In this document: positions 23,545 to 27,757 of the stretch, piece after piece
How the letters are laid out: every line of letters starts with the position of its first letter
Position numbering within the stretch: the stretch's first letter is position 1
NCBI GenBank assembly: GCA_039944855.1
Contig: JBDUXZ010000020.1
Span: forward strand, 310,001-374,000
Reading direction: 5' to 3'
Origin: Rhodothermales bacterium
Lineage (GTDB): Bacteria; Bacteroidota; Rhodothermia; Rhodothermales; JANQRZ01
DNA: 64,000 bases
Position numbers and translations under genes: made by a program
The notes under the pieces: model-generated
Told to the model about the DNA's origin: nothing
The model's database searches: none
The model's input: only the letters and a program-made list of their open reading frames with translations

Positions 23545-26500
23545 TCAACCACAACCTGTGCTCGCTCCGCAATTAACGCAGGAATAGCAGCTACCTGCGC
23601 GGACTGTGATGCTGCCGCAGTTCGGACAGGCGGGGGCGTCCTCCTGGTTGCGGAACGTCGAGGTCGCCGCCGGGGTGCGGGCGTCCTGCACCTGCATGAA
23701 CGCCTCCACCGTCTGCCCGACGAGCGAATCGACCGTCCCCGTCGGCGCGTCGAACATCCCGATCTGTGACTCGTCGGAGGCCGGGCCGCTGCGGAGTGCT
23801 TCGTCCGCAACGGCCTGCTTAGGGTTTACCGGGTCCTCGACGGGCTCGGGCGTCGTGTGCCCGAGGAATTTGATCGAGAGGTAGCGGAAGATGTAGTCCA
23901 TGATGGACTTCGCGATCGGGATCTGCTGGTTGTTCGTGAACCCCGCCGGCTCGAACCGCATGTGGGAGAACTTCGAGCAGAGGTCTTCGAGCGGCACGCC
24001 GTACTGGAACGCGAGCGAGATCGCGGTCGCGAAGGCGTCCATCATGCCCGAGACCGTCGAGCCCTGCTTCGCCATCGTGATGAAGATCTCGCCGGGCAGG
24101 CTCGTGTCGGGGTAGAGCCCGATGTGGAGGTAGCCCTCGTGCCCGGCGATCGAGAACTTGTGCGTGATGCTCGGGCGCTCGTCGGGCAGCCGCTTGCGGA
24201 TCGGCTTGTAGACGACCTTCTCCACGATCTGCGGGTCCGTGAGGCCCGCTTCGAGCGCGGCTCCGTCGCCCGCGTGCTCGGCGACGGCGGCCTCTTTGTT
24301 CTTCGTGTTGCCGCCTTCCTTCGTCGAGAGCGGCTGGCTGCGCTTCGAGTTCTCGCGGTAGATCGCGACGGCCTTGAGGCCGAGCTTCCAGCCCTGCATG
24401 TAGGCGTCGGCGATGTCCTCGGGCGTCGCGTGCTCGGGGAGGTTGACGGTCTTCGAGATCGCGCCGGAGATGAACGGCTGGCACGCCGCCATCATCTGGA
24501 TGTGGCCGAGGTGGCCGATGGAGCGCTCGCCGTTGAACGGCTTGAACGCGCAGTCGAAGACCGGCAGGTGCTCGTCGCGGAGCCCCGGCGCGCCCTCGAT
24601 CGTGTCGTGCTCGTCGATGTAGTCGAGGATGGTTTGCGTCTCGGCGGCGGTGTAGCCGAGCTGCTCCAGCGCCTCGGGCACGGTCTGGTTGACGATCTTC
24701 ATCAGCCCGTCGCCCTTGCCCGCGAGGAGCTTGTACTTCACGAGCGCGATGTCGGGCTCGATCCCCGTCGTGTCGCAGTCCATCATGAACCCAATCGTGC
24801 CGGTCGGGGCGAGGACGGTGGCCTGGGCGTTGCGGTAGCCGTACTGCTCGCCGAGTTCGACCATCCGGTCGGCCGACTCCTTGGCGGCGGCGCGGAGGTA
24901 GTCCGGGCACGACGGGTGGATCTCAGCGACGGCGTCGCGGTGCATCCGCATCACGTGGAGGAACGGCTCGCGGTTCTTGTCGAACCCGTTGAACGGGCCG
25001 ATCCGCTCGTTAGCTGCGATCTCGGCGCTCCGGGCGTAGCCCTCGCAGTGCTCCATCGCCATGATCGCGGCGGCGACGGCGCGTCCCTCATCGGAATCGT
25101 ACGGTAGCCCCATTGCCATCAGGAGCGCGCCGAGATTCGCGAAGCCGAGCCCGAGCGGGCGGTAGTCGTGCGAGTTCTTCGCGATCGACGCCGACGGGTA
25201 GCCGGCGTTGTCGACGAGGATCTCCTGCGCGGTGAGGAAGATGCGCGCGGCGGCGCGGAAGCGGTCCACGTCGAAGCGGCCGCTGCCCGTCTGGAACTTG
25301 CGGAGGTTCAGGCTTGCGAGGTTGCACGCGCTGTTGTCCAAGAACATGTACTCCGAGCAGGGATTGCTGGAGTTGATCGCGTCCGTGTTCGGGCACGTGT
25401 GCCATTTCTGGATCGTGTCCTCGTACTGGAGGCCGGGGTCGCCGCACAGGTGCGTGCCCTCGGCGATGCCGTCGAGGATGCTCCGCGCCGGGACGGAGTC
25501 GACCACCTCGCCACTCGTGACGGCCTTGAGGTCGTAGAGCCCGTCCGCTTCGACGGCCTGCATGAGGGCGTCGTCCACGCGGACCGACTGGTTCACGTTC
25601 TGAAAGGCGACGCTGCCGTAGGCCGGGCCGTTGAACGAGCCGTCGTAGCCCTGCTCGATGAGCGCCCACGCCTTCTTCTCCTCCGTCATCTTGGCCTCGA
25701 CGAACTCCATGATGTCGGGGTGCCACGACTTCAGCGTCTGCATGATCGCCGCGCGGCGCGTCTTCCCGCCGGACTTGATCGTGCCGCCCGTCGCGTCCTG
25801 CACCTTCATGAACGAGACGGGGCCGCTCGGCTGCCCGCCGCCCGAGAGCTTCTCCCGGGAGGAGCGGAGCTTGCTCCAGTCTGCGCCCACGCCGGAGCCG
25901 AACTTGAAGAGCCGCGCGCTCTCCTCCATCAGCTTCCAGATGTCGTCGACGGAGTCGTTGACGGCGATGATGAAGCACGCGCTCGCCTGCGGCCGCTCGT
26001 AGGGGTCGACGGACTTGATGGTGTCGGTCTCGGGGTCCCAGCCGTAGATCGTCTTCCCGCCGGAGTCGCGGACGCCGTACTGGTGGTTGAGCCCGACGTT
26101 GAACCACACGGGCGAGTTGAACGCGCCGTGCTGGTTCACGCAGAGCCACGTCAGCTCGTCGTAGAACGCGTCGGCGTCGGCGTCGGAGGCGAAGTAGTGC
26201 TGCGCCTGGCCCCAGTCGGTGATCGTCCGGGTGACGCGGTGGATGAGCTGGCGGAGGCTGTGCTCGCGCTGCCCGTCTTTCGGCGAGCCGTTGCCCGAGG
26301 CGAGGTCGCCGTAGAAATACTTGGAGGCGACGACGTTCGTGGCGAGCTGGCTCCACGAGGTCGGGAACTCGACGTCTTTCTGCTCGAAGATGAACGCCCC
26401 CGTGTGGTTCTTGATGGCGGCGTCGCGCGTGCCCCACTCGACGCTGTCGAAGGGGTCGGCGCCGGCGCTGGAGAACGTGCGGTCGATCGTCAGGCCGCGA

Positions 26501-26547
26501 GCGAGGGCGTCGGAGGCGGGCGTCGGGGGTGTGGTCTTCTTCGGCAT
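23545..26547 (-). CDS. nrdJ: Adenosylcobalamin-dependent (class II) ribonucleotide reductase
   Basis: A 1000-residue enzyme that makes deoxyribonucleotides using a B12-derived radical and needs no oxygen-dependent partner subunit. The catalytic barrel contains NPCSEYMFLDNSACNLASLNL-like residues (the NxCxE active site, around residue 395) and the phosphate-binding ATVLAPTGTIGFMMDCDTTG. A TSCPB domain near residues 800-900 (GYLHIGLYPDTSLPGEIFI) and a C-terminal Cys-rich tail (CPNCG and CVNCG) are typical of long NrdJ proteins; the tail probably re-reduces the active site. No nrdA/nrdB or nrdR gene is in the window. The upstream region carries DnaA-box-like sites. Confidence 0.96.
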   Translation of the reverse strand: MPKKTTPPTPASDALARGLTIDRTFSSAGADPFDSVEWGTRDAAIKNHTGAFIFEQKDVEFPTSWSQLATNVVASKYFYGDLASGNGSPKDGQREHSLRQLIHRVTRTITDWGQAQHYFASDADADAFYDELTWLCVNQHGAFNSPVWFNVGLNHQYGVRDSGGKTIYGWDPETDTIKSVDPYERPQASACFIIAVNDSVDDIWKLMEESARLFKFGSGVGADWSKLRSSREKLSGGGQPSGPVSFMKVQDATGGTIKSGGKTRRAAIMQTLKSWHPDIMEFVEAKMTEEKKAWALIEQGYDGSFNGPAYGSVAFQNVNQSVRVDDALMQAVEADGLYDLKAVTSGEVVDSVPARSILDGIAEGTHLCGDPGLQYEDTIQKWHTCPNTDAINSSNPCSEYMFLDNSACNLASLNLRKFQTGSGRFDVDRFRAAARIFLTAQEILVDNAGYPSASIAKNSHDYRPLGLGFANLGALLMAMGLPYDSDEGRAVAAAIMAMEHCEGYARSAEIAANERIGPFNGFDKNREPFLHVMRMHRDAVAEIHPSCPDYLRAAAKESADRMVELGEQYGYRNAQATVLAPTGTIGFMMDCDTTGIEPDIALVKYKLLAGKGDGLMKIVNQTVPEALEQLGYTAAETQTILDYIDEHDTIEGAPGLRDEHLPVFDCAFKPFNGERSIGHLGHIQMMAACQPFISGAISKTVNLPEHATPEDIADAYMQGWKLGLKAVAIYRENSKRSQPLSTKEGGNTKNKEAAVAEHAGDGAALEAGLTDPQIVEKVVYKPIRKRLPDERPSITHKFSIAGHEGYLHIGLYPDTSLPGEIFITMAKQGSTVSGMMDAFATAISLAFQYGVPLEDLCSKFSHMRFEPAGFTNNQQIPIAKSIMDYIFRYLSIKFLGHTTPEPVEDPVNPKQAVADEALRSGPASDESQIGMFDAPTGTVDSLVGQTVEAFMQVQDARTPAATSTFRNQEDAPACPNCGSITVRAGSCYSCVNCGASTGCG

Positions 26548-26641
26548 CTAGGCGTCAGTTGTGGCGGTTGGGGAGGGGTGGCGGTGGGAGCCGTTCGTAC
26601 CCCGTAAGTAACTCGGAAGGGCGGGCGCTCTGCAAGTCGAG

Positions 26642-26858
26642 TTGCCCACACGATATCTACAGCGTGGGGCCGGCGCGTGCGATGGCTTGTCCACACCGCC
26701 CGGTCGGGGCCGATCCGCCCGGAGGCGACGCAGGCCGCGATCGGATATCCGTTATGCGCAGTACTGCACACCGATCGCGGCCGTGTGGACAAGCCGGGCG
26801 GGGCGAGGCGGGTCCCGACGGGGACCAATAACGGAGTGCTGGGGGGATGCATAACGGA
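26642..26858 (-). promoter_or_regulatory. nrdJ upstream region with DnaA-box-like sites and nested inverted repeats
   Basis: The 433-base gene-free stretch before nrdJ contains TTGTCCACA at 26687-26695 and its inverse TGTGGACAA at 26784-26792. Both match the high-GC DnaA-box form, and both sit inside 13-bp inverted arms (26684-26696 and 26783-26795). A one-mismatch box, TTGCCCACA, is at 26642-26650. Nested inside is a 12-bp stem GGCCGCGATCGG (26733-26744) with its complement at 26771-26782. TCCGTTATGC (26748-26757) recurs inverted at 26849-26858. In E. coli, DnaA boxes regulate nrdAB, so a regulatory role here is reasonable. I saw no convincing NrdR box or cobalamin riboswitch. Confidence 0.55.
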
Positions 26859-26920
26859 TCCCCCGGCTTTCCCGTAACCCCTCGATGACGCAGCATCTGC
26901 GGGCGGAGGGCAGGAACGAG

Positions 26921-26952
26921 ACCGGGGGCGGCAGAACCCCGCCGCCCCCGGT
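26921..26952 (-). terminator. Terminator hairpin after the Asp-rich gene
   Basis: A perfect 12-bp stem, ACCGGGGGCGGC at 26921-26932 and its complement at 26941-26952, closes an 8-base loop 28 bases after the Asp-rich gene's stop codon. The minus strand continues CTCGTTCCTG, a weak T-containing tail. Confidence 0.6.
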
Positions 26953-26980
26953 TCGATGCTACGCAGAACGGCGACGGCGG

Positions 26981-27151
26981 CTAGAAGTCGTCGTCGTCGA
27001 AGTCATCGTCGTCGAAGTCGTCTTCTTCGAAGTCGTCATCGAGGTCGTCGTCGAGATCATCATCGAGATCGTCGTCGGTGTCGAAGTCGTCGTCGATGAG
27101 ATCGTCGTCGGTTTCGTAGGCGAGAGGCGTCGCTAGGGATAGAGCGTCCAT
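26981..27151 (-). CDS. 56-residue Asp-rich acidic protein
   Basis: The ATG at 27151 opens MDALSLATPLAYETDDDLID. About 35 residues made almost only of Asp, with periodic Leu and Phe (DDDL then DDDF repeats) and two Glu, follow to the stop at 26981. More than half of the residues are Asp. The sense of the repeat (GAC/GAT codons mixed, with regular Leu/Phe spacing) argues for selection on protein rather than a simple DNA repeat. It has its own downstream hairpin. Possible roles are a nucleic-acid mimic, cation or chaperone-like function, but none can be assigned. Confidence 0.7.
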   Translation of the reverse strand: MDALSLATPLAYETDDDLIDDDFDTDDDLDDDLDDDLDDDFEEDDFDDDDFDDDDF

Positions 27152-27358
27152 GGCGTCGACAGGGGTGCGGTGAGAGAGAGAAAAAGAGGGGACAAAATAG
27201 GCACGGAGACCCGGTTCCCCAGGCGGGCGTCGCCCTCGCCCGTTCCCGATCGAGAAACTTCGAGCGGTTTTGGTACGGGAGGCGGCCGGCCCGGTAGTAG
27301 TTTACGAAGCTCCGCCCACTCCGCAACGCAGCACTAGAAAAACGCTCGACGCCCCCTT

Positions 27359-27757
27359 ATGTACGACTCCGAACGCAGTGCCTACCCGCACCCCGATGAC
27401 TTCAAGGTGATGCGGCCCGAGTACGTCGACATCGAAGACGAGGACGAGGTGCAGGCCGTCATCACGATCGCGCCGTTCCGCGTCACCGGCCGGAGCGTGA
27501 CGCGCCCCGGCGCCCGCCGCGCCGCGCTCTACGAGGCCGAGAAGACGTACCGCAACTACCACCCCTCGCACCGCATCGCGAGCCCGTACCCCGACGAGTT
27601 CACGGACAACGAGGGGACGAAGTGGACCCGCGTCCGCGCCAGCCAGCGCGCCGACCTCGGCGACTACGCGTTCCTGCTCGACGGCGAGGACGAGGAGGAC
27701 TACGCCGACATCGAGCAGATGCTGGCGTGGGACGTCCGCGTCGCCGGCGAGGAGTGA
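27359..27757 (+). CDS. Acidic protein of unknown function
   Basis: I do not recognise this 132-residue cytoplasmic protein. It starts MYDSERSAYPHPDDFKVMRP. A central basic, Arg-rich segment (FRVTGRSVTRPGARRAALYEAEKTYRN) lies between acidic ends; the C terminus contains LLDGEDEEDYADIEQML. There is no signal peptide or membrane helix. The gene is divergent from the Asp-rich gene across about 207 bases with no other feature, and a GC-rich hairpin follows it. Codon use is typical of the genome. Confidence 0.72.
   Translation: MYDSERSAYPHPDDFKVMRPEYVDIEDEDEVQAVITIAPFRVTGRSVTRPGARRAALYEAEKTYRNYHPSHRIASPYPDEFTDNEGTKWTRVRASQRADLGDYAFLLDGEDEEDYADIEQMLAWDVRVAGEE

Follow-up and report, generated by a model that had tools for sequence, protein, structure and literature searches.

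Matching the supply of dNTPs to the initiation of replication is known in detail only for Escherichia coli nrdAB. DnaA control of ribonucleotide reductase (RNR) is established for E. coli nrdAB and has been proposed for Bacillus subtilis and Caulobacter crescentus (PMC8203912). The locus studied here raises the question of whether DnaA also acts on a B12-dependent RNR. It lies in a window of 64 kb, the whole stretch of DNA that was analysed, from the 4.6 Mb genome of a bacterium in the order Rhodothermales (assembly G000). An earlier note on this DNA had described two perfect inverted TTGTCCACA sites and a third near-match upstream of a class II nrdJ. All three sites are present, and the identity of the gene was confirmed by its profile matches:

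23545..26547, minus strand: nrdJ, class II adenosylcobalamin (B12)-dependent ribonucleotide reductase of 1000 aa (NF005122, 1341.6 bits; Pfam PF02867 and PF08471).
26784..26792, minus strand: D1, DnaA box TTGTCCACA, at -245 from the nrdJ start; the same 9-mer occurs in the predicted oriC.
26687..26695, plus strand: D2, DnaA box TTGTCCACA, at -148 from the nrdJ start, inverted to D1 and 97 bp away.
26642..26650, plus strand: D3, degenerate promoter-proximal DnaA box TTGCCCACA, with one mismatch, 5 nt from the -35 element.

Based on the comparisons of sites and genomes below, this stretch is very probably a DnaA-responsive control region of nrdJ, in which DnaA would act at D1, D2 and probably D3, and a second repeated site, CCGTTAT, would provide the operators of another, RNR-dedicated regulator.

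Besides nrdJ (one match), no other large-subunit gene of a class I/II RNR was found in the genome. A PF00268 match at C33:59309 is distant and weak (77 bits), and no NrdA partner was found for it. Around the nrdJ control region (26400-27400), no Rfam match to a cobalamin riboswitch was obtained. In several relatives (G001, G002, G004, G009, G011, G012, G018, G023, G028, G037, G040 and G057), nrdJ carries an in-frame interruption after about residue 397, and some of these copies have a further in-frame insertion near 585 or 700; the interruptions are several hundred residues each, as expected of inteins, and the window copy has none. Moreover, a small, very acidic ORF (MDALSLATPLAYETDDDLIDDD...DDDDF; 26981-27151, minus strand) lies upstream of nrdJ in the same direction, and a similar Asp-rich ORF is found upstream of nrdJ in G002 (L058).

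TTGTCCACA occurs exactly twice in the window, where 0.05 copies are expected and 0 of 100 shuffles gave two, and both copies stand about 140-245 bp upstream of nrdJ. The genome-wide count proposed in the earlier note gave 18 copies of TTGTCCACA versus 1 in the reversed control; TTATCCACA has 13 copies. In the whole genome, two perfect TTRTCCACA sites less than 350 bp apart are found only in the nrdJ upstream region and in oriC. The latter pair (C20:233485/233787) belongs to an oriC-like stretch with 12 boxes at no more than one mismatch and an AT-rich segment, on the same contig as the nrdJ boxes and 103 kb from them. The surrounding interval (G000:C20:231745-233900; L010, L011), AT-rich and with about a dozen DnaA-box-like sites, was assigned as the probable oriC from sequence only; dnaA (C20:160475-161971) is on this contig too, about 70 kb away. 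The box sequence at nrdJ is thus one that the predicted oriC of the same organism also uses. A further DnaA box lies about 310 bp upstream of dnaA, and another DnaA-box-like pair of partial sites (CGTCCACGGTTTGTCCACACGGTGGATTAAAAG) was seen at G000:C11:133054 (L006); other clusters of DnaA boxes or CCGTTAT in the genome were judged from pattern searches. A box cluster 103 kb from oriC, with a pair spacing that is fixed in the family, would also be in keeping with a datA/DARS-like site, which titrates or recharges DnaA, stands beside nrdJ by chance and acts on replication timing instead of nrdJ.

We compared the upstream regions of nrdJ within the family, the order and the class. In the other two genomes of the family, TTATCCACA (at the position of D1) and TTGTCCACA (at that of D2, identical in position and sequence) stand at -246/-149 and -245/-148 from the nrdJ start, compared with -245/-148 in the window. 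The spacing is exactly 97 bp in all three genomes, and the DNA between the boxes has diverged. In the 700 bp upstream of 32 Rhodothermales nrdJ genes, TT[AGT]TCCACA occurs 45 times at 24 loci, against a total of 0.68 expected from a Markov model; the density of boxes is 2.0 sites/kb there versus 0.054/kb in coding DNA and 0.062/kb farther upstream. These loci come from related genomes and hence are not independent, so the count by family is the safer figure: an exact box precedes nrdJ in at least one member of 14/14 sampled Rhodothermales families with nrdJ (f1-f5, f7-f15). Exact boxes are missing in several f15 genomes and in some f2 and f14 genomes, which counts against DnaA control of nrdJ. 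Among nrdJ loci of Planctomycetota and other phyla, a box was found in 1 of 46.

Furthermore, the boxes extend beyond the order. Family f16, of the same class and probably Balneolales, has an nrdJ that is distant (about 47% identical in its N-terminal part), and TTATCCACA-N11-TTTTCCACA precedes this gene in all 19 sampled genomes. In f18 and f20, boxes occur in 3 of 5 regions as inverted pairs 61-63 bp apart. The boxes are therefore conserved upstream of orthologous nrdJ genes, being kept in the family, enriched across the order and present in every f16 genome sampled. The interpretation thus survives the check on the upstream regions of relatives that the earlier note had set.

By anchoring the upstream regions on the boxes, a shared promoter was found, which in the window includes the following elements:

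26632..26636, minus strand: putative -35 element CTTGC of the nrdJ promoter; CTTGC-N19/20-TTTATT/TATATT is conserved across the class.
26605..26610, minus strand: putative -10/-7 element TACTTA of the nrdJ promoter, from sequence comparison.
26645..26662, minus strand: CTGTAGATATCGTGTGGG element, which overlaps D3 and hardly varies among the three genomes of the family; its core TATCGTGTGG also occurs in G059 (L022).

This promoter lies directly downstream of the boxes, and f16 has CTTGC-N19-TATATT beside its own boxes in 19/19 genomes. CTTGC follows the box after 5-6 nt in most of the Rhodothermales fitting the pattern, after 17 nt in Rhodothermus and after 15-16 nt in f16, where the automatic pattern took a different match in seven sequences whose letters show the same arrangement. 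Roughly one helical turn thus separates these gaps, which is the pattern to be expected of a protein touching RNA polymerase from a single face of the DNA. A further point against DnaA control is that the proximal box is degenerate in the family of the window (TTGCCCACA in the window and TTTCCCACA in the relatives, separated from CTTGC by 5 nt), and that the perfect boxes lie upstream at about 50 and 147 nt from the -35 element. The near-match of the earlier note, D3, thus marks the conserved place of the promoter-proximal box, the position at which TT(T/A/G)TCCACA abuts CTTGC in many Rhodothermales. The sites, their conservation, their place next to the promoter and the helical phasing in relatives are direct observations. 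Together with the unchanged positions, the 97-bp spacing and the density of 2.0 versus 0.05-0.06 sites/kb, they support the predicted link between DnaA and nrdJ. A datA/DARS-like role is accordingly improbable: the boxes keep their place with respect to a conserved promoter, even in helical phase, and, as described below, the cluster goes with RNR genes, among them a class I nrdA at a separate locus, and does not leave nrdJ when its neighbour moves.

The earlier note had also described nested inverted repeats with a designed-looking geometry. The repeats do exist: inverted arms of 17 nt (26684-26700/26779-26795, 94%), an inner stem of 12 bp (26733-26744/26771-26782), and an 11-bp inverted repeat (26747-26757/26849-26859) consisting of two copies of CCGTTAT. 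However, conservation in the two other family genomes is limited to the boxes, the promoter, one GATATC element and the CCGTTAT sites, and includes neither the longer arms nor the 12-bp inner stem. The nested geometry is thus mostly an inverted pair of boxes plus an inverted pair of CCGTTAT sites, the designed look is partly incidental, and the nested stems have no evident meaning. Long nested repeats, with a fold z-score of -3.0, might also suggest a chance palindrome, a mobile repeat (MITE/REP-like) or an RNA hairpin controlling translation. We consider this very improbable, given that what is conserved is the boxes and not the stems, and that the sites are found in either orientation and for the most part lie upstream of the promoter. 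In particular, a mobile repeat or MITE was rejected on the single copy of the element in the genome, and an RNA element on the lack of any Rfam match and of conserved stems.

The motif that makes up the 11-bp repeat occurs three times in the region:

26851..26857, minus strand: M1, CCGTTAT, position conserved in the family.
26828..26834, minus strand: M2, CCGTTAT, direct repeat of M1 at 23 bp.
26749..26755, plus strand: M3, CCGTTAT, in the opposite orientation, at the same position in two family members.

CCGTTAT is present in 47 of 50 nrdJ upstream regions of Rhodothermales (2.1 expected); 32 nrdJ loci hold 90 copies versus 3.6 expected, with 0 in coding DNA. Its copies and the boxes recur in a set order. 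One such arrangement is a direct pair at 23-24 bp: of the 20 pairs of this kind in 60 genomes, 14 are upstream of nrdJ, and one more, at the end of a contig, is accompanied by the same pattern of boxes. A few f15 sequences suggest that the motif drifts to CCATTA(T/A) there. In f16 and Planctomycetota, CCGTTAT does not exceed chance frequency or is lacking altogether. This second repeated site was found in Rhodothermales alone and is apparently undescribed; no paper on it was found in the open-licence literature. Two other roles for the motif were rejected: that of a global regulon, given that CCGTTATKCA is not enriched genome-wide over the reversed control, and that of an oriC element, there being none in oriC.

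According to a 2014 review, nearly all bacteria have the RNR regulator NrdR (PMC4009431). The NrdR model TIGR00244 gave no match in 60 Rhodothermales genomes and was positive in 9 of 14 control genomes. Inspection of the nrdJ promoter by eye gave one partial NrdR-box look-alike and no pair (GATATCGTGT at 26645-26662, in the family of the window), and the CTGTAGATATCGTGTGGG element at the same coordinates partly resembles one half of an NrdR box. NrdR boxes were rejected as a reading of the sites, as NrdR was not detected in these 60 genomes of the order. CCGTTAT is best read, from its distribution, as the operator of an RNR-dedicated regulator that would do the usual job of NrdR. This factor is most likely a repressor, because many families have a copy that overlaps the promoter spacer (CTTGCATAACGG); another copy lies in the leader.

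At other loci, the RNR genes and their neighbours are arranged differently. Rhodothermus (f3) also has a class I nrdA, and TTTTCCACA boxes and CCGTTAT sites lie upstream of it, just before a promoter and an AdoCbl-II riboswitch; in G047, boxes and CCGTTAT likewise precede nrdA and a gene that we call X. What the element goes with is therefore the RNR gene, not a particular locus. The AdoCbl-II (B12) riboswitch in the class I nrdA leader of Rhodothermus lies at L231:1584-1659, L234:1769-1844 and L238:1585-1660, minus strand. From its presence, the class I RNR appears to be B12-repressible in these genomes, which also carry nrdJ. Gene X itself stands next to nrdJ in the window:

27359..27757, plus strand: gene X, encoding a conserved 132-aa protein divergently from nrdJ; candidate co-regulated partner or regulator.

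X was found in 106 genomes, all Rhodothermales, and in none of the other genomes of the class that were searched, the same range as CCGTTAT. It is single copy in nearly all Rhodothermales and divergent from nrdJ in most families. X has no Pfam or NCBIfam match; its predicted fold is confident (pLDDT 90), and a structure search gave only weak dsRBD-like hits, without any at E ≤ 0.001. Two roles are conceivable for X, that of a co-regulated partner and that of a CCGTTAT-binding protein. Its divergent position could also mean that the element belongs to X instead of nrdJ, or serves both, and two genomes that lack nrdJ (G014 and G033) do keep boxes and CCGTTAT beside X. We took 15 loci at which X lies away from nrdJ, of which one has almost no upstream DNA. 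Among the 14 readable loci, which lie away from an RNR gene, 12 lack any box in front of X and have no more than a single stray CCGTTAT there, and the nrdJ of the examined genomes keeps the sites. Moreover, f16 has boxes and no X. Ownership of the sites by X was therefore mostly rejected, with G014 and G033 counting the other way, and is quite improbable as the explanation of the region.

Returning to DnaA control of nrdJ, we infer that DnaA binds the region and would occupy the strong boxes D1 and D2, from which it probably helps to fill the weak D3 beside the -35 element. Transcription of nrdJ, whose product is the main enzyme by which the cell makes dNTPs, would thereby be tied to the amount or nucleotide state of DnaA. 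As to the direction of control, the phasing of the proximal box suggests that DnaA may activate RNA polymerase from one face of the helix; alternatively, high DnaA-ATP could repress nrdJ, as at E. coli nrdAB (PMC8203912). The CCGTTAT sites would act as operators of the second regulator in the role of NrdR. It is possible, although we would not call it probable, that Rhodothermales replaced NrdR with an undescribed RNR-dedicated regulator that binds CCGTTAT at RNR promoters of both classes, II and I, and acts jointly with DnaA, the divergent neighbour X (27359-27757) being a candidate.

Collectively, the class-wide occurrence of promoter-phased DnaA boxes on B12-dependent RNR genes makes the coupling of dNTP supply to replication testable where NrdR was not found. 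The predicted link is seen again at nrdJ genes that are only distantly related and, in the case of Rhodothermus, at class I genes. CCGTTAT predicts an undescribed RNR regulator, for which both a specific target DNA and a candidate gene can be named. The open-licence literature yielded no paper on nrdJ-associated DnaA boxes in Rhodothermales.

Among known systems, NrdR boxes resemble the CCGTTAT sites as short RNR-dedicated sites in or near the promoter, before more than one RNR class; however, the NrdR box is a 16-bp palindrome, acaCwAtATaTwGtg, and usually paired, whereas CCGTTAT has 7 bp and is non-palindromic (PMC4009431, PMC12176259). The proposals for B. subtilis and C. crescentus (cited in PMC8203912) likewise have DnaA couple dNTP supply to replication outside E. 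coli, but they concern different lineages, and no such report for nrdJ was found among the papers searched. The closest parallel is E. coli nrdAB, which also has DnaA boxes upstream of an RNR gene, three in number, and a known link between DnaA and RNR expression (PMC8203912). There, in contrast, the RNR is class I, and NrdR and Fis also act. The Rhodothermales region differs in its class II nrdJ, another placement of the boxes, undetected NrdR, the additional CCGTTAT sites and a conservation that is order- and class-wide.
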